Positions 26,014 through 34,055 of a DNA stretch of 64,000 nt are shown one piece after another; the stretch's first letter is position 1, and each line of letters opens with the position of its first letter. Under the pieces are notes generated by a model. It was not told where the DNA came from, did not search any database, and saw only the letters and a list, made by a program, of their open reading frames with translations. Origin of the DNA: Granulicella sp. S190 (GTDB lineage: Bacteria; Acidobacteriota; Terriglobia; Terriglobales; Acidobacteriaceae); the NCBI RefSeq assembly GCF_009766095.1, contig NZ_LMUD01000023.1, forward strand, positions 154,279 to 218,278. Direction: 5' to 3'. The translations under genes and the position numbers were made by a program.

Positions 26014-29000
26014 TTACTGCTGAACGGTTAGGGTGACGGAGGTGGAATGAGTGAGGGAACCGCTTGTGCCGGTAATGACGATGGTTGAGGTAGAACTCGG
26101 GAGTGCGAAGCCGTTGCCGTTGCCGCAGCCTGAGAGTCCCGCGCTCAACGCGCCAAGAGCACACAGGCAAAGCAGAAGCCTTATGGCGATTTTCCTTCGT
26201 CTCCCAAACCGCGCAAGCAGAGCGGCCGTGAAGACTCCTCCGAAGGCGGAGAGGTGACCGTTCCTCGGTGTATCTCGCGCGCTCTGAGTGGGAATTGTCA
26301 CCAGTAGCGCGCTAGTGGGTTGACTGGAAGCTGGCACGATACTTCCGGGCGAGAACGTAGACGTCGCTCCGGCAGGCAGGCCGGAAGCAGACAGGGTCAC
26401 GCTGCTTGTAAATGGATTGGAAGCGGAGGCTGAGGCCAACTGAATCGTGTAGGTGACCGAGGTGCCACGAAAGCTGGCCTGCGCCGCCGGGTTCGCCGCG
26501 ATGGTGAAGTCTGCCGGCGTGGCGGCCGCGACGGCTGTGCCGGAGAGTGCGGATGTTTGCGTGCCCACCGCGTCGGTGACCGAAAGGCTGGCGGTAAAGC
26601 TGCCCGTAGAAGTGGGCGAGAATGTAACCGCGATAGTGCAGGAGCCTCCGGCAGCCAGCGTCGTGCCGCAGGTATCGGCTCCGAGCTGGAACGAAGAAGC
26701 GTTCGCACCGGTGAGGGCAACGGAGGTGATTGACAGAGCCGCGTTGCCTGCATTGGCGAGAGTGAAGGTTTGGGCTGTGCTACTAGTGCCGGTCGCAACG
26801 CTATTGAAGTTCGCAGAGGCGGCGGTGAGAGCAGCCTGCGGAGCCGCTGCTGGAGTGGATGCGACGCCGGTACCCGTCAACGCTGAGGTCTGCGTTCCCA
26901 CCTGATCGACGATGGTGAGCGTCGCCGAGGATGGACCTGCGGTGGTTGGCGAGAAGACGATGAGGATCTGGCAGGTACTTCCTGGCGGCAGTGCGGGCAA
27001 GTCGCGTGGGCTCGATCCGCCGCGTGTAGTCACTCGGCTACGCGCCGGTCTCGCGTCAGCCGTGCCGCCGGTGGCACAGCTGTTGTTGACCACGATGAAG
27101 CTGTCCGGATTCGCCCCGCCGAGTGAGAGCGATGTAATGGCCAGCGCTGCGTTGCCTGTATTCGAGAGCGTAAAGGTTTGCGCGGAGCTTGCGGCGCCTG
27201 TCGTTATGCTGCCGAAGTCGGCGGTTGCGGGCGATAGTGACGCCTGCGGGGCAGAGGTTGTAACGGCATTGCCGATGGCAGAGAGCACCACAGTTAGGGG
27301 CGATGCAGGATGGTTGAGGTCGTGAATCGAGTAAGTGGAGGTGAGTGGGCCTGCGCTCTGCGGGGTGAAGGTAAAGGTGACGGTGCAGGTGCCTCCGTTG
27401 GCTGAGATGATGGCGCAGTTGCTCGTCTGGGTGAAGTCGATCGCGTCGGTCAGCGAGCCGCTGCTGAGATAGATCGCCTGGTTGGTGGTATTGGTGATCG
27501 TGGAGGTAAGTGCGGAGCTAGTGCTGCCCACAAGAATCGCTGGAAATGTCTGGGTGGTGGGTGCGATGGTGAGTGATCCGGTGTTAGTGGCGGCGATTGC
27601 GGTGCCGACTAGTGAGATCGTCTGTGTGACGTAGGGGCTGGGAGCATTCAGACTGTTGTCAGTCAAAACAATCGAGCCCGTGATGTTGCCTACAGTGACC
27701 GGTTCGAATTCCACCGAGAGGCCGCAGCTACTTCCTTGCGCCAACATCCCAGCTGATGAAGCTGGCCCCTCAAAGGGGCACGGCCCACTGTTACCGATGA
27801 AGCCCGTGAAGCCCGTGGAGATACTCGGATTTGACCCGGTTGAAGGCGGCGGCAGAGCCAGTGGCGCGTTGCCGATGTTTGAAACGATCGCTTGCAGCGG
27901 GCCGTCTGTCGTGTCGATCGAGTCGACGGGAGTGGGCGTGGCGAAGGTTAACGTAGGGTTGCTGACATCCACCTTTCGAACCAGATTGTTCTTCGTGTCG
28001 GCGACGTAGAGATTGCCCGCGCCATCTAACGTAACCTTCTGCGGGCCGTTCAGTGAGACCTGCGTTGCCGACCCGCTACCGGCAGAGCCTTGCGAGCCAT
28101 TGCCAGCAACGGTAGTGATGGTCTGAGTGGCCGAATCCACTTTTCGGATGAGGTTGTTGGAAAAATCTGCAATATACAGATCGCCGGCAGGGTCCACCGC
28201 AACGCCCATCGGCCAGTTCAATTGCGCGCTGGTTGCAGCTCCGCCGTCGCCTGCGTAGCCGGCGCCGAGTGCGTTGTTACCTGCAACGGTGTGAATGATG
28301 CCGTCCGTCGTTACTTCACGTACGACGTGGTGGCCGGAGTCCCCGATGAACAGATTGCCCGAAGCATCCACGGTGATGGAATCGTACGACGCATAGACAC
28401 CCCCACCGTAGAGAGCCAGGTTCGCCTGGGTAGCCGGCCCACCATCACCACTGTAAGCAGGTGTGTCCTGACCGACAGTCGCCGGATTACCCGCAACCGT
28501 TGTAATGATGCCCGCGGTATCTACCTTGCGGATCAGGTTATTGTCATGATCTTCGATATACAGATTGCCCTGCAGATCGAGCGCAAGACCTTCTGGATAG
28601 TTCAGGCTCGCCTGGGTGGCAGGGCCATTGTCTCCGCTATAGCCTGCATTGCCGTTACCCGCGACGCTAGTGAGTATCTGTGTGACGGCATCAATTCTGA
28701 AGACCTGCTGGGCCGTCTCAGCTATGAAATAGACGTTCCCTGCGGGATCGACAACAACGTCGGCAGGACGATCGAACGTTGCACTGGTCGCAGGACCACC
28801 AACGCCGCTTAGACCGCCGGCACCGGTACCCGCGATCACAGTGATGTTGCCACTCGTATCGATCTTGCTGACGGTGTTGCTGTAGAACGACGCGACATAG
28901 ACGTTCCCCGCGAAGTCCACTGCCCCCGCGGATGGATTGCAGATTGGCCCAAGCAAGGCGGGTCCGTTATAAGCATTGCAGTTTGGCCCGTTGATCTCGC

Positions 29001-29529
29001 CAGCCAGCGTTGACATGGTTCCAGGTGTCAGCACTGCAAGCGGACTGATACCCATGCCGTTCAAGCCGATATTGAACTTGCCGGCGCTGGTGGCTACCTG
29101 CAGAGGCACGGGACGCTGGCCAGGGTACGCGGGACTGAAGGTGATGGAAACCGTGCAGACCGTGTTGACCGGATTGGTCGTCACGCCATCGACCGCGCAA
29201 CCGCTCACTGTGCCAACTGTATATTCCTGCTTGTTTCCTTCAGATACAGGCACCGTGAAACCGCTGATGGTCTCGGCAGAGGTTGTCTTGAGAAGGATAT
29301 TCTGCGGGGCGCTGCTGCTGGCGACATTTGTTGCAGGTAAGGCGATAGGGCCGTTCACCGGGACCAATTGCGCATGCAATGGCTTCCACGACACCAGGAG
29401 CATGACCATCAGCCCGAAAAGCTGCAAAGGTTTATATGCGTTCGTGTGGCGATAACGGAGAGAACCGGAGTACTGGCGAAGTATGCAGCGCGAGATCAAC
29501 TGCGAGATTTCGGGAATTGACGATGGCAT
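26014..29529 (-). CDS. Giant NHL-repeat/choice-of-anchor-D surface protein
   Basis: This 1171-residue exported protein has a hydrophobic signal region (LFGLMVMLLVSWKPLHA, about residues 38-54). About six NHL repeats follow at residues 190-525, with repeated GNVYVADxxNNxIRKV and ITTVAGNG patterns, then several Ig-like choice-of-anchor-D (ASPM-SPD-2-Hydin) modules. A C-terminal segment has RFGRRRKIAIRLLLCLCALGA, a possible membrane anchor. One Ig-like module carries an extra 24 residues encoded by a palindromic sequence (26992-27066). AAGGAG precedes the ATG, which overlaps the stop of the small gene upstream (TGATG). A role as an extracellular binding scaffold is inferred only from the repeats. 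Confidence 0.85.
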   Translation of the reverse strand: MPSSIPEISQLISRCILRQYSGSLRYRHTNAYKPLQLFGLMVMLLVSWKPLHAQLVPVNGPIALPATNVASSSAPQNILLKTTSAETISGFTVPVSEGNKQEYTVGTVSGCAVDGVTTNPVNTVCTVSITFSPAYPGQRPVPLQVATSAGKFNIGLNGMGISPLAVLTPGTMSTLAGEINGPNCNAYNGPALLGPICNPSAGAVDFAGNVYVASFYSNTVSKIDTSGNITVIAGTGAGGLSGVGGPATSATFDRPADVVVDPAGNVYFIAETAQQVFRIDAVTQILTSVAGNGNAGYSGDNGPATQASLNYPEGLALDLQGNLYIEDHDNNLIRKVDTAGIITTVAGNPATVGQDTPAYSGDGGPATQANLALYGGGVYASYDSITVDASGNLFIGDSGHHVVREVTTDGIIHTVAGNNALGAGYAGDGGAATSAQLNWPMGVAVDPAGDLYIADFSNNLIRKVDSATQTITTVAGNGSQGSAGSGSATQVSLNGPQKVTLDGAGNLYVADTKNNLVRKVDVSNPTLTFATPTPVDSIDTTDGPLQAIVSNIGNAPLALPPPSTGSNPSISTGFTGFIGNSGPCPFEGPASSAGMLAQGSSCGLSVEFEPVTVGNITGSIVLTDNSLNAPSPYVTQTISLVGTAIAATNTGSLTIAPTTQTFPAILVGSTSSALTSTITNTTNQAIYLSSGSLTDAIDFTQTSNCAIISANGGTCTVTFTFTPQSAGPLTSTYSIHDLNHPASPLTVVLSAIGNAVTTSAPQASLSPATADFGSITTGAASSAQTFTLSNTGNAALAITSLSLGGANPDSFIVVNNSCATGGTADARPARSRVTTRGGSSPRDLPALPPGSTCQILIVFSPTTAGPSSATLTIVDQVGTQTSALTGTGVASTPAAAPQAALTAASANFNSVATGTSSTAQTFTLANAGNAALSITSVALTGANASSFQLGADTCGTTLAAGGSCTIAVTFSPTSTGSFTASLSVTDAVGTQTSALSGTAVAAATPADFTIAANPAAQASFRGTSVTYTIQLASASASNPFTSSVTLSASGLPAGATSTFSPGSIVPASSQPTSALLVTIPTQSARDTPRNGHLSAFGGVFTAALLARFGRRRKIAIRLLLCLCALGALSAGLSGCGNGNGFALPSSTSTIVITGTSGSLTHSTSVTLTVQQ
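26992..27066. repeat. Palindromic element inserted in frame in the NHL-repeat gene
   Basis: The segment contains CGCG..TAG (27021-27029) facing CTACGCG (27038-27044), a hairpin with a 2-base bulge. It encodes about 24 Arg/Ala/Ser/Pro-rich residues that interrupt one choice-of-anchor-D module between two conserved cysteines. The other modules of the same protein have far fewer residues there. It looks like a REP-like or selfish palindrome that inserted without breaking the frame. Confidence 0.45.
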
Positions 29530-29711
29530 CAGAATTTCTCCTTGAGTTGTTCAAACGATCTTTGGCAGTCAGAGGCCGCCGCCCTCGTTATCCGGGATCC
29601 GTCGGATTTCAGGGTGTCCCTGATGTCGGCTCCCTGGGCAATCGCGGGCAGGAAAGAGGAGAAAGCGAGCAGGGTGATAAAGAAGCGCGCGGCCCGGCGA
29701 TTAAGCTGCAT
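29529..29711 (-). CDS. Small secreted protein, unknown function
   Basis: The 60-residue protein has a clear signal peptide (NRRAARFFITLLAFSSFLPAIAQGA) and a charged mature part of about 32 residues with one cysteine. GAGGAG lies 5 bases before the ATG at 29711. Its stop codon overlaps the NHL-repeat start (TGATG), and its start overlaps the previous gene by 11 bp, so all three are probably translated together. I do not recognise a family. A periplasmic or surface partner of the NHL-repeat protein is the simplest guess. Confidence 0.6.
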   Translation of the reverse strand: MQLNRRAARFFITLLAFSSFLPAIAQGADIRDTLKSDGSRITRAAASDCQRSFEQLKEKF

Positions 29712-29931
29712 TGGAACTCCTCGAATTGGCTTGTTTATTAACGGGATCCAGCGACTCTGGCATGACGTCCACTGATTTCGTTTTTGAATTGTCTTTATGT
29801 TTTTCCAAAGGCCGCATGGAGCGGTTGATCTTCCTGCAGCCGCGAGCCGTCAGCTCCAGGCAGGGCACGAAGACGAACATCATCAGCAAGATGGCACAAG
29901 AGATGGTGATCGAGATCAGGTTTTCAGACAT
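29701..29931 (-). CDS. Small single-pass membrane protein, unknown function
   Basis: The 76-residue protein has one N-terminal membrane segment (LISITISCAILLMMFVFVPCLEL, about residues 5-27) and a hydrophilic basic tail with many Lys, Ser and Asn. AAGGAGG lies 6 bases before the ATG at 29931, an excellent ribosome-binding site that rejects the longer frame opening at 29958. It is third of the small genes ahead of the NHL-repeat protein and overlaps the next by 11 bp. No family is recognised. Confidence 0.6.
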   Translation of the reverse strand: MSENLISITISCAILLMMFVFVPCLELTARGCRKINRSMRPLEKHKDNSKTKSVDVMPESLDPVNKQANSRSSNAA

Positions 29932-29966
29932 GGAAGTCCTCCTTGAGAACGACGTCATCGTGAATG

Positions 29967-30212
29967 TCAGTCATCGCAATCCTTTCGACTGCAGACGGTG
30001 ATGCGACCTTCGGCATTGCGGTGGAGGTGAACGCGCCCTTCGTTCAGAGCAGCTGCGAGCTCTTCGGGGAGCATCTTCGTCTCTGATCCGCGCGAGAGAG
30101 AGTCAGCCAAAGGGGCTGCTTCATCGTCAGGGCTGGACCATGAGGACGAAGTCGCATAGAGGGTGATCTCTCGCTGTTCGACCTCAATGGAAACCCGCCG
30201 GATGCGCTTCAT
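29967..30212 (-). CDS. Small hydrophilic protein, unknown function
   Basis: The 81-residue protein begins MKRIRRVSIEVEQREITLYA, has an acidic middle, and ends EGRVHLHRNAEGRITVCSRKDC. No signal or membrane segment is visible, so it is probably cytoplasmic. GGAGG lies 3 bases before the ATG, which is tight. The start overlaps the previous frame by 29 bp and the next gene begins 35 bp later. The alternating hydrophobic pattern at both ends suggests two small beta-rich pieces. No family is recognised. Confidence 0.55.
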   Translation of the reverse strand: MKRIRRVSIEVEQREITLYATSSSWSSPDDEAAPLADSLSRGSETKMLPEELAAALNEGRVHLHRNAEGRITVCSRKDCDD

Positions 30213-30372
30213 ATTCCTCCACGCCCACCGCAGCGGGGTCCCGTGAGATCAGCAGAGGATGGTGAGTGCTGAGTTCGCATCTCCTTACCACTGCAGCCTC
30301 ACCCCGCTGGCTGGTGTGCATCCTGTTCTCCCACAGAAGATCCTTCGTCGCCTTCAAGCCAGCCTTAAACAT
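30184..30372 (-). CDS. Small protein, first frame of the cluster, unknown function
   Basis: The 62-residue frame starts MFKAGLKATKDLLWENRMHT. On sequence alone it would be doubtful. The upstream DNA supports it: the ATG at 30372 is preceded by a CAATT-N7-AATTG dyad ending 4 bp before the start, and 19 of 24 bases from the dyad through the ATG are shared with the regulator gene at 33071. Ribosome-binding strength is poor unless the AAGG inside the dyad is used. It overlaps the next gene by 29 bp. Confidence 0.4.
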   Translation of the reverse strand: MFKAGLKATKDLLWENRMHTSQRGEAAVVRRCELSTHHPLLISRDPAAVGVEEYEAHPAGFH

Positions 30373-30376
30373 TTCT

Positions 30377-30393
30377 CAATTAACCTTCAATTG
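30377..30393 (-). promoter_or_regulatory. CAATT-N7-AATTG dyad before small-gene cluster
   Basis: This inverted repeat ends 4 bp before the ATG at 30372. The same dyad sits at the same distance before the regulator gene (33076-33092). In RNA the arms would form a 5-bp stem with GAAGG in the loop, so it could be a DNA operator or a translational element. Confidence 0.5.
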
Positions 30394-30428
30394 GGGTTAT
30401 GTCTTTTGTTGCGTATGAGATAGGAGTT

Positions 30429-30470
30429 TCTCAAATTTTCGAGATTGAGGATGTTGTCTCGATCGAGACA
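30429..30470 (-). promoter_or_regulatory. Pair of TCTC-GAGA dyads, operator-like
   Basis: TGTCTCGATCGAGACA (30455-30470) is a perfect 16-bp palindrome. A related imperfect dyad with TCTC and GAGA ends lies at 30429-30444. Their centres are 26 bp apart, about two and a half helical turns, as is common for paired dimer sites. Confidence 0.4.
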
Positions 30471-30619
30471 TGGCTACACCGGTGACATCGGTTAGCGTGG
30501 GCGTGGCGTGTCTGATAAATAAACCGCTTAAATTACTCGGGAGAGGAGGGAAGAAGCCCTAAAGACCACATTTCGGAGTGGACGACAGAACGAGCAACGC
30601 GCACTCGACATACGACGAT

Positions 30620-30651
30620 CGACTATCTATATAGATAGTCGCAGTCGACTG
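30620..30651. promoter_or_regulatory. Two adjacent perfect palindromes
   Basis: A 22-bp perfect palindrome with half-site CGACTATCTAT occupies 30620-30641. CAGTCGACTG, a 10-bp palindrome, follows directly at 30642-30651. They lie between the regulator stop codon (30693) and the cluster. There is no T tract, so a protein-binding site is more likely than a terminator. Confidence 0.4.
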
Positions 30652-30692
30652 TGGCAGTTCAGATACCAAATAACGGTCTCAACAAGGATGCT

Positions 30693-33071
30693 TCATCGTG
30701 AAGCCGGGGTCGCACGAAGTGCTGCCAGCTCTTGCTTCGCCTCAGTGAGAAATACAGCCTTTGAATCGGCGCGAGACCAAAGCGCAAGGAAGTGCTCATA
30801 GGCCTCGGCGGCCTGTGGACGTCTTCCTTCCGCTGCCAGTGCGCGTGCCAATCCAAGCCACGCTAGCGGTTGGGTCAATGAAAGAGGTTCCAGGAAGGGC
30901 TTCGCCAGAGCCTTTCTGAACTCGGCTTCAGCCGACAGGGGCTGGCCGCCCGCGAGGTAAGCGCTGCCTCGTCGCACCGCCATGTCATTTGACCGGCCAT
31001 CGAGCGTGCGTGTGGGCTCCAACGCAGCGATGGCGTCTAGCGGCTTGTTGGATGTAAGTGCGATCTCGCCGCGGATGGCCGGGCCAAACCACGACCGCCA
31101 CAGGGTGTCATTGGGGCGTTTCGACAGTTCGTCGCCCAAAATCTTAGTGGCCTCGTTCTGATTGCCCATCTGAGCCAACCCAAGGACTTCAGTTCCTTCT
31201 TCCGGATCGACCGGCGCCGACTTTAACAACGCAACTCCGTCAGCGGTGTCACCCGCTACGATGAAGTTCGCGCCATAGGATTTTGTCAGACTCGCCGCGG
31301 CTTCAGAAAAACCTTGATGACGAAGGATCTCAGCACCTTGATCGATGAATCGCCGAGCTTCAGCGAAACGCCCTTGGGACGTAGCTAACTCGCCTTCCGC
31401 GAGAATGAAATAAGGACTATCGGGATGAGAGGCAGCCCAGTCTCGCTCGGCTTGAAGTAAGGCGGCATCCCCCTGTGCTACCGCGGTCACAAATAATGTC
31501 ATGCGAATCAAGTCACCATCGACACCCAGTGCGATCGCCCGTTCGCAGGTTGCGCGTGCAGATTTCGCATCGCCGGAAGCGAGCTGCGCGTCTGCGAGGT
31601 TCGTGAATAGTCCCAGGTACTTTGGCCTGAGCGCGAGAGCATGCTGTACGGAGACAACCGCCTCCGCTTGTTCGCCAAGTGCGCGCTGAACGATAAAGAG
31701 ATTGTTCCACGCTGAGGCAAGGCGCGGGTACAGAGCGATCCACGCGTGATAGTCCCTCTCCGCCGCGTACAGATCGCCTGTAACAATGGATTCATAGCGG
31801 CCCGTAATATTGATCTTCATCAAAGGACCTACAGAGTCACGGAGCGAATAAGCCTTTTCAAGAGCTTTACGTGAGCCGGCATTATCACCCGTACTGCTAT
31901 AGTTCATCGCCAAGTCGTAGTAAGCTGAGCCGAAGTTTGGGTCGTAACTGATCGCCTGTTTGAGCAGCCCGACCGACTCCGAGCGTTTACCCTGCTCCGA
32001 CAGTCGTTTTGCCTGGCTGTATGCCTTGAGTGCTTCGAGAGAGGCAGTATCCGCAGGCGCGATTGGTACGCTGAACCGTTCAATGCTTCGTCTTGATTCA
32101 CCCAACTTCTGTCGAAGAATACCGGTCAACCTATCAATGGTCCCCGGTAAATCTTCCGCTCTAGTCACCTCGCGTTTCGCCGCAACAAGGGTCGCGCCAT
32201 CGACGCAGTTTGTTGCTTCCTCCGTTACTAAAAACTGCTCCCCATCTCGGGCAAGCGTGCCATTCAATACAGCCTGACTGTTGGTGCGTTCACAGAGTTC
32301 GCGGGCCGTAGCCGCGTCCATCGGGTCGTCCGGCGCTCTCTTCATCTGCTTGAGAGTGGTAGTCACAGTCGTGGACGGAACGACCGAAACAAAAGGACTC
32401 TGGCTCAGGTCCGTCCGTAGCGCGTCCAGAAGCGTATGGTCCAGAATCGTGTCTCCGGTAGTTCCGGCCAAAGGCGCGAGGACAATCTGCACAGGAGGGC
32501 CACCGGTACGATCCAGCCAATGCTGCCACTGCGTCCATCCAAACCATCCAAGTCCGGCGATCAAAACCAGAACACCAGCCGCAAGCAGTAAGCGCTGGCT
32601 ACGAGCTGTGAAACCTTTTGCAGGTGTCTCAGCTCGACTCGCCGGTGCGATTGTCGCTGGGTCTTCGTCGATCTGCTCTTCGAGAGTCACGCGAGTGATG
32701 CTACGGCGCTCCTTAAAGACGAGGCTCTGATTTTCCTCAGACGGTGTGATCTCAAGAGGAGCCACAAACCGATACCCTCGCCCCGCGACGGTCTCAATCA
32801 TCTTCCGCTTAGACTCGTGCCGGGACAGCGCCTTTCGCAGTAGAAACACATGCTGCGACAGATTGCTCTCCTCCACAATCTGATCAGGCCAGACTGCAGT
32901 CAGCAGTTCATCTTTCGTCACGACCTGGGTTCTGTGATCGATCAAGTAGAGCAGCAGGTCGAAGGTCTTCCGATTCAAGGGGATCTGCTCGTCCTGCCAT
33001 CGAAGTTGCCAGCAGGATCGATCGACTTCATAACCTTCAAAGCAGAATAAGCCGTTGTTTAAAAGCGACAT
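30693..33071 (-). CDS. Membrane-anchored winged-helix regulator with TPR domain (ToxR/CadC-like)
   Basis: The N-terminal OmpR/ToxR-type winged helix spans about residues 8-103 (LNRKTFDLLLYLIDHRTQVVTKDELLTAVWPD, VFLLRKAL, VAGRGYRFVA). One membrane segment follows at about 165-190 (LLLAAGVLVLIAGLGWFGW). The large C-terminal part, presumably periplasmic, has TPR-like helical repeats (KAYSQAKRLSEQGKR, FGSAYYDLAMNYSSTGD, ALALRPKYLGLFTNLADAQLASGD). With 792 residues it is a one-component transmembrane regulator of a type common in acidobacteria. It lies just upstream of the small-gene/NHL cluster and shares its start-proximal dyad, which suggests control of that cluster and of itself. Confidence 0.88.
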   Translation of the reverse strand: MSLLNNGLFCFEGYEVDRSCWQLRWQDEQIPLNRKTFDLLLYLIDHRTQVVTKDELLTAVWPDQIVEESNLSQHVFLLRKALSRHESKRKMIETVAGRGYRFVAPLEITPSEENQSLVFKERRSITRVTLEEQIDEDPATIAPASRAETPAKGFTARSQRLLLAAGVLVLIAGLGWFGWTQWQHWLDRTGGPPVQIVLAPLAGTTGDTILDHTLLDALRTDLSQSPFVSVVPSTTVTTTLKQMKRAPDDPMDAATARELCERTNSQAVLNGTLARDGEQFLVTEEATNCVDGATLVAAKREVTRAEDLPGTIDRLTGILRQKLGESRRSIERFSVPIAPADTASLEALKAYSQAKRLSEQGKRSESVGLLKQAISYDPNFGSAYYDLAMNYSSTGDNAGSRKALEKAYSLRDSVGPLMKINITGRYESIVTGDLYAAERDYHAWIALYPRLASAWNNLFIVQRALGEQAEAVVSVQHALALRPKYLGLFTNLADAQLASGDAKSARATCERAIALGVDGDLIRMTLFVTAVAQGDAALLQAERDWAASHPDSPYFILAEGELATSQGRFAEARRFIDQGAEILRHQGFSEAAASLTKSYGANFIVAGDTADGVALLKSAPVDPEEGTEVLGLAQMGNQNEATKILGDELSKRPNDTLWRSWFGPAIRGEIALTSNKPLDAIAALEPTRTLDGRSNDMAVRRGSAYLAGGQPLSAEAEFRKALAKPFLEPLSLTQPLAWLGLARALAAEGRRPQAAEAYEHFLALWSRADSKAVFLTEAKQELAALRATPASR

Positions 33072-33075
33072 ATCG

Positions 33076-33092
33076 CAATTAATCCTGAATTG
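33076..33092 (-). promoter_or_regulatory. CAATT-N7-AATTG dyad before regulator gene
   Basis: Same arms, spacing and distance to the ATG (4 bp) as the site at 30377-30393. This fits autoregulation together with control of the cluster. Confidence 0.5.
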
Positions 33093-33345
33093 AGTTTTTC
33101 TTGAGGTCCACTTGAAGCCGGGAGATCCGGTGCGTGCGTAAATGGCTCATGCAACGAAGAATGCGAACTGAAAGCACAAGCGATTCCCAGAAAGCATATC
33201 AAGCATCTCGCTGTACTTCACCATTTATGTCGCCCTGGACAGCCACGCAGGCAGAACACACCAAGAAATTGTTTGTGTCGCAACTAATTTTTAGGGCTGG
33301 CGGATCTTTGCTCTTTGCGTTGCTGTACTCCCCTTGGTTCTCGCT

Positions 33346-33382
33346 GGCGGCCCCTGCTTAGTAGGGGGCCCTACCAGCCGCC
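33346..33382 (+). promoter_or_regulatory. Structured leader hairpins upstream of PEP-CTERM gene
   Basis: GGCGGC (33346-33351) can pair with GCCGCC (33377-33382). Inside, GGCCCCT (33349-33355) and AGGGGGCC (33363-33370) compete with GTAGGG/CCCTAC (33361-33374). These mutually exclusive hairpins lie about 100 bp before the ATG. Confidence 0.3.
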
Positions 33383-33482
33383 GATGAAAAGTACCTCATC
33401 TGCCAACGCAGCGCCAACCCTGATCGTCCTCCACCAACGCCCTTAGCACTTCGGGGCCACAACCCGCAACAAGGAGATATCC

Positions 33483-34055
33483 ATGCGCCGGTCCTCTGTA
33501 CTTTTCGCCGCTCTGTTCCTCGCCTGCGCCGCATCCACGACGTTTGCGGATACGGTATCAACCTTCATCCTCTCGAACGCCATTTTTCAGAGCGGCGCAA
33601 TCGGTACCGGTATCGTCGAAATCGATACTACGACCGGTGTCGTCACGGGCCAGACTGTGGGTTGGGTGGAGGGGGATCCGAATCAGGAGGAACTATTCGT
33701 CGGTGTTGCTAATCAGGGTGCCGTCACAGAAACTCCTACATCGATCTATGCTTTTGATGGTGAGAATGCGGACGGCGATTTGTTCAACTTCGATCTTCTT
33801 GGATCCTCTCTGGTTGGTTACAAAGGAGGCAATATCTGCTCTCTCTCGAACCTTTGTGACGGCAACATCAGCAGCGCGTTTGAAACTCCCGACTCATCCC
33901 CTGACTTCTTCAGGTCCGGAGCTCTCGTCTTCGATTTCAGCACGACCACGCCGCCACCCATCCCATCAGTGCCTGAGCCCGCATCACTCGTCTTGCTGGG
34001 AACTGGTCTGATCGGCGTAATGGGCGGGCTTCGTCGCAAGCTGACGAACAGCTAA
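33483..34055 (+). CDS. PEP-CTERM sorting-signal protein
   Basis: The 190-residue exported protein has an N-terminal signal peptide (RRSSVLFAALFLACAASTTFA) and a C-terminal PEP-CTERM tail: SVPEPASLVLLGTGLIGVMGG followed by RRK. Such tails are recognised by exosortase, which cuts and attaches the protein at the surface, usually together with exopolysaccharide. The central part is acidic and beta-rich with no recognised domain and one close cysteine pair (NICSLSNLC). AAGGAG lies 7 bases before the ATG. No exosortase gene is in the window. Confidence 0.88.
   Translation: MRRSSVLFAALFLACAASTTFADTVSTFILSNAIFQSGAIGTGIVEIDTTTGVVTGQTVGWVEGDPNQEELFVGVANQGAVTETPTSIYAFDGENADGDLFNFDLLGSSLVGYKGGNICSLSNLCDGNISSAFETPDSSPDFFRSGALVFDFSTTTPPPIPSVPEPASLVLLGTGLIGVMGGLRRKLTNS

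Follow-up and report, generated by a model that had tools for sequence, protein, structure and literature searches.

Acidobacteriota are abundant in soils, and most of their transmembrane transcription regulators have no known binding site or target. In a stretch of 64,000 nucleotides from the genus Granulicella (hereafter the window, 64 kb), the gene for one such regulator and the first open reading frame (ORF) of a downstream small-gene cluster are each preceded by the same short palindrome, which raises the question of what this element is and what, if anything, recognizes it. The sequence CAATT-N7-AATTG occurs at 30377-30393 and 33076-33092, exactly where the first-pass annotation had placed it, in each case 4 bp before an ATG on the minus strand (30372 and 33071, respectively), and 19 of the 24 bases from the dyad through the ATG are identical between the two sites. 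These are the only two copies in the window, where shuffles predict 0.04, and the genome (5.05 Mb) contains four, the other two being inside ORFs. The two sites are not a chance occurrence.

Direct repeats beneath the dyads

Each dyad lies within an array of four units of 11 bp, arranged head-to-tail at an 11-bp pitch and consisting of YTCAA plus 6 bp. Array B (33073..33116, minus strand; TTCAAGTGGAC/CTCAAGAAAAA/CTCAATTCAGG/ATTAATTGCGA) holds the dyad at 33076-33092, while array A (30353..30396, plus strand; TTCAAGCCAGC/CTTAAACATTT/CTCAATTAACC/TTCAATTGGGG), which has one core mismatch (CTTAA), holds that at 30377-30393; units 1 and 2 of the arrays fall outside the dyads. As the AATT core is self-complementary, two adjoining units (CAATT....AATTG) resemble a dyad, and comparison with relatives indicates that the dyad is a side effect of AATT within tandem direct repeats, a case that illustrates how a self-complementary core can give such repeats the look of a palindrome.

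Among 12 arrays compared, the dyad is perfect in the two of the window genome only and has one or two mismatched pairs in the other ten, whereas the TCAA cores are without mismatch or have one mismatch in one unit. In the nearest relative, G066 (all relatives named here are Granulicella, the same genus as the window), both dyads are lost and the direct repeats are intact at both sites. The inverted repeat is thus broken in all 10 of the other arrays while the direct repeats are kept, which argues against the inverted repeat as the recognition unit. A search for the dyad in relatives found a genus background of about one to two per genome and zero in G066 and G030, and it is not conserved at orthologous loci.

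The annotation had offered two functions for the dyad, that of a DNA operator and that of an RNA hairpin whose loop would present the ribosome-binding site. Binding of the dyad by a symmetric dimer would account for two perfect copies equidistant from their ATGs, far above the expected number, but it is highly improbable given the restriction of the perfect form to the window genome among the arrays compared, its background frequency in the genus, and the fact that tandem repeats are the usual targets of OmpR/PhoB-type domains (PMC4832192). The hairpin comes close to untenable: its loops do carry AGG about 11 nt from both ATGs, and array B is probably transcribed, judging from a conserved -10 element, but the predicted folding energy is 0 kcal/mol for site B and -1.4 for site A (-2.9 with its flanks), the pairing is not conserved across arrays, the loop AGG is missing at the same place in G078b, and the ORF beginning at site A is probably not translated. 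A cis-acting RNA hairpin was accordingly rejected for its energy and lack of conservation, and no Rfam match was found in 29900-33500. What survives of the earlier proposal is that both sites look like DNA operators, one of them an apparently autoregulatory copy, with the direct repeat rather than the dyad as the probable unit.

The arrays were also sought with a position weight matrix built from six relatives only, with no window sequence, since a pairwise homology test of site A that penalized mismatches harshly had yielded fragmented alignments. In scans of the 64-kb window, arrays A (on the plus strand) and B (on the minus strand) were the top two hits. The longer version of the matrix scored A at 26.1 bits, B at 11.1 and the third-ranked site at -6.6, and the array-only version scored B at 22.8, A at 19.8 and the next non-overlapping site at 9.4.

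The regulator and the array at its start codon

The gene that follows array B (30693..33071, minus strand) encodes a predicted ToxR/CadC-like transmembrane regulator of 792 aa, as judged from Pfam, hydropathy and relatives in PDB. It has an N-terminal OmpR/PhoB-type winged helix (wHTH) at residues 28-102 (Pfam Trans_reg_C, 8.2e-19), whose PDB relatives include SaeR, CadC, PhoB and ToxR, a single strong hydrophobic segment at about 161-179, and a C-terminal part with TPR repeats (Pfam); it has no receiver domain. The topology inferred from these features would place the TPR part outside the cytoplasm, where it probably resides. The orthologue in G066 is 82% identical.

Array B stops 1 bp short of the regulator ATG, in the order ATTAATTGCGA, T, ATG. 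The corresponding stretch of about 50 bp in G066 differs by a single substitution, and this substitution breaks the dyad (CAATTCAGGATTAACTG). The same anatomy recurs before the orthologous regulator in G066, G005, G061, G076, G068, G078 (two copies) and G016, and with slightly looser spacing in G070; the leader in G005, for example, reads CTCAAGTCCGG, ATCAATCGCCC, CTCAATTCAGG, CTCAATCTCCC, C, ATG. A possible extended -10 element (TTGATATGCT, 33193..33202, minus strand) lies some 75 bp upstream of array B; it appears as TTGGTATGCT in G066 and as TTGCTATACT at a similar place in relatives. This candidate would put array B within the 5' leader of the regulator, a position that suits autorepression. 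A leaderless -10 at TTAATT before the regulator ATG was rejected, as it is not kept in relatives.

If the regulator binds as PhoB/PhoP-type wHTH proteins do, each array would hold about four DNA-binding domains, lined up head to tail along a single face of the DNA. From the position of array B, in the leader of its own gene and abutting the ATG, we infer that negative autoregulation is the most likely outcome of binding.

Array A, the small-gene/NHL cluster and a lost regulator

Array A adjoins a cluster of minus-strand genes. The ORF whose ATG lies inside the array (30184..30372, 62 aa, tentatively referred to as sg1) has no Pfam match and reaches a stop after 13 codons (G066) or 40 (G063) in relatives; because it is cut short in both, its start is doubtful and it is probably not a gene. 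The next, sg2 (29967..30212, 81 aa), begins with GGAGG-AAT-ATG, where GGAGG is a clear ribosome-binding site, and is likely the first gene of the target operon; G066 carries a homologue, and relatives have weaker ones. It is followed by sg3 (29701..29958, 85 aa; kept in G066 and G063), sg4 (29529..29711, 60 aa; kept beside the NHL gene of a second cluster in G066), and the main product of the cluster, a probably exported NHL-repeat/Ig-like (ASPM-SPD-2-Hydin) protein of 1171 aa (26014..29529), which is 69-81% identical to its counterparts in the best segments of the relatives' clusters. The earlier tie between the regulator and the first small gene thus holds in that the sites link the regulator with the downstream cluster, but not for sg1 itself, which probably is no gene. 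A sigma-70 consensus scan located no promoter for the operon, and no plasmid records resembling the region were found.

Immediately ahead of its Shine-Dalgarno sequence, sg2 has an inverted repeat, GCGGGGTGAGG ... CTCACGGGACCCCGC, in its leader (30233-30308, minus strand). The repeat is conserved in G066 (L103) and G063 (L111) and may form a structured 5' leader; folding of the single sequence is no better than that of shuffles, and covariation among the three sequences is almost nil.

Array A points away from the cluster, so that its orientation relative to its operon is opposite to that of array B. Relatives suggest how this came about. In G061, G076, G068 and G078a, a regulator gene and the sg2-NHL operon are arranged divergently and an array abuts the regulator ATG; array A has the same place and orientation as this array. 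A GTTCTCCCAC block (30325..30334, plus strand) is spaced from the array just as it is in six relatives, which shows the region of site A to be homologous to the divergent regulator leader. Directly after the array, ATGTCTTTTGTTGCG (30399..30413, plus strand) resembles the regulator start ATGTCCTTTATTGCG of relatives and is probably a relict of the lost gene; the distance to the sg2 ATG is 187 bp, compared with 186 bp in G076. Together, these matches in place, orientation, block distance, first codons and sg2 spacing indicate that a divergent regulator was apparently lost in the window lineage, leaving its operator and first codons behind. A different arrangement is seen in G005, which retains two convergent regulators between two NHL clusters, and in G061 a second four-unit array past the 3' end of the regulator (L106:4210-4260), aimed at the regulator and followed by an ATG, may be the leader of a further convergent regulator that has been lost.

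This history allows array A to be a non-functional relict, with array B as the sole working operator. Array A is indeed exactly where the divergent regulator leader of relatives lies, the first codons of the lost gene can still be recognized, and in G003 the array of a truncated wHTH relict is intact. Against this, array A is kept in G066 and G063 where the dyad is broken: it is identical to G066 at 35 of 41 positions (19 of 20 core positions), compared with 34 of 67, with gaps, on the coding side of the relict, and units 2 and 3 are almost unchanged in G063, whose adjoining regulator is a different paralogue. This better preservation of the array favors a working operator over a mere relict, and G030 and G069 also retain arrays close to sg2; we therefore regard loss of function at array A as unlikely. 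A functional array A upstream of sg2-sg3-sg4-NHL would most likely place that operon under the same regulator, with activation favored. We consider it probable that arrays A and B are tandem direct-repeat operators of the regulator encoded at 30693-33071, B serving autoregulation and A the control of the sg2-sg3-sg4-NHL operon. Points that weigh against this assignment are the core mismatch and the opposite orientation of array A, the failure of the promoter scan to locate an operon promoter and, in the wider comparison below, the absence of a start-abutting array in G030 and G069 and the small share of regulators with a strict array.

Arrays and recognition helices across Acidobacteriota

In 62 congeners, TCAA-N7-TCAA-N7-TCAA has 58 matches, compared with 14 for the reversed control. 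Consecutive four-unit arrays number 14, of which eight are directly before the start of a wHTH regulator (one truncated) and three are beside an sg2-NHL cluster. In the window genome, a three-unit scan for extra operators allowing one mismatch gave 13 matches compared with 10 for the control, the consecutive matches being sites A and B only, and most two-unit matches with one mismatch fall inside ORFs. In the close relatives G030 and G069, the array is absent directly at the regulator start.

Several arrays are found elsewhere. A perfect four-unit array in G003 (L299:2855-3098) directly precedes a truncated wHTH ORF of 62 aa, where another regulator seems to have been lost and the operator stayed. 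G030 has a four-unit array followed within a few bases by the start of an sg2 homologue, with no regulator adjoining it (L301:2925-2998), and two further four-unit TCAA arrays between genes unrelated to the cluster (L300:3035-3085 and L302:2977-3030); the latter are near genes for glyoxalase-like and 2Fe-2S proteins, which are candidate distant targets.

The 11-bp periodicity is a feature of the wider regulator family. Compared with shuffles, the 60 bp before wHTH-TPR starts show a lag-11 autocorrelation of z = 10.3 for 103 genus loci (lag 22, z = 4.2) and z = 6.3 for 54 non-redundant genus genes, and the lag-11 signal is about 0 at -120..-60. A set of 75 loci, most of them in other Acidobacteriota families and including two Verrucomicrobia records, gave z = 18.1 at lag 11 (lag 22, z = 10.2). 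Over all 92 non-redundant genes, lag-11 z is 13.0 and the signal climbs toward the start codon; these z-scores, as well as the Fisher test below, overstate independence, because non-redundant genes still share ancestry. Strict TCAR or TGAN arrays with at least three cores precede 21 of the 92 non-redundant regulators, where shuffles predict 0.3. Distant wHTH-TPR leaders in other Acidobacteriota families (L227, L241, L263, L273, L288 and L291) have a more extended motif in common, approximately AAGTCYTnAA and then two or three TCAA units at intervals of 11-12 bp.

Repeat core and recognition helix covary. Residue 76 (window numbering, NLSQHVFLLRKAL) is Phe in 10 of 12 regulators with TCAR arrays and in none of the nine with TGAN arrays, six of which have Ser (Fisher p = 2e-4, with the same shared ancestry). 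Of the evidence at hand, this covariation speaks most strongly for binding of each regulator to the array at its own start. It also bears on whether the arrays are bound by a different wHTH protein, be it a paralogue or the response regulator of a two-component system, with the regulator adjoining them by chance. The genome does encode a paralogue (C16:477710) whose wHTH is 67% identical to that of the regulator, but arrays abutting the start codon are found before many separate members of the family and their core follows the helix residue, which leaves a foreign binder quite improbable.

Extending the assignment of arrays A and B to the regulator, the broader proposal is that many Acidobacteriota transmembrane wHTH-TPR regulators carry their cognate operator as an array of about 11-bp repeats abutting their own start, that position 76 acts as a switch for the core (Phe for TCAA, mostly Ser for TGAN), and that arrays outlive lost regulators. 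We see the case for this generalization as evenly balanced. If true, the leaders of hundreds of uncharacterized one-component regulators could reveal the DNA specificity of these proteins, and natural covariation could yield a wHTH specificity code; if the arrays are the regulators' own operators, sites, and then regulons, would be predictable from sequence alone. In the open-licence literature, we found neither a prior description of Acidobacteriota wHTH-TPR regulators or their sites, nor an earlier account of a phylum-wide start-abutting array (up to four units) with helix covariation.

The elements themselves are of known kinds, combining an OmpR/PhoB-type tandem operator with a ToxR/CadC-like transmembrane regulator. 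OmpR/PhoB-type wHTH proteins bind head-to-tail to 7-bp motifs separated by 4-bp spacers, and PhoP of Mycobacterium tuberculosis bound three and four repeats more tightly than two (PMC4832192). The arrays described here resemble such Pho-box-type operators (PhoB, M. tuberculosis PhoP) in the 7-bp motif plus 4-bp spacer, the 11-bp pitch and the head-to-tail order, and the linked regulator has the same Pfam DNA-binding domain; they differ in that the regulator lacks a receiver domain, four units abut its own start codon, and the core is TCAA. Transmembrane transcription regulators show some enrichment in the genomes of Acidobacteriota (PMC10269533). Among ToxR/CadC-like regulators (PMC10269533; PMC8517210), ToxR of Vibrio parahaemolyticus represses its own gene via a promoter-proximal ToxR-box-like site (PMC6135047), and ToxR is cited as recognizing a direct repeat (Goss et al. 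2013, as cited in PMC10269533). The window regulator shares with them the N-terminal wHTH, one hydrophobic segment and a C-terminal domain that is probably non-cytoplasmic, but has a large TPR C-terminal part, belongs to the Acidobacteriota, and is associated not with a short box of two units but with a regular array of four.
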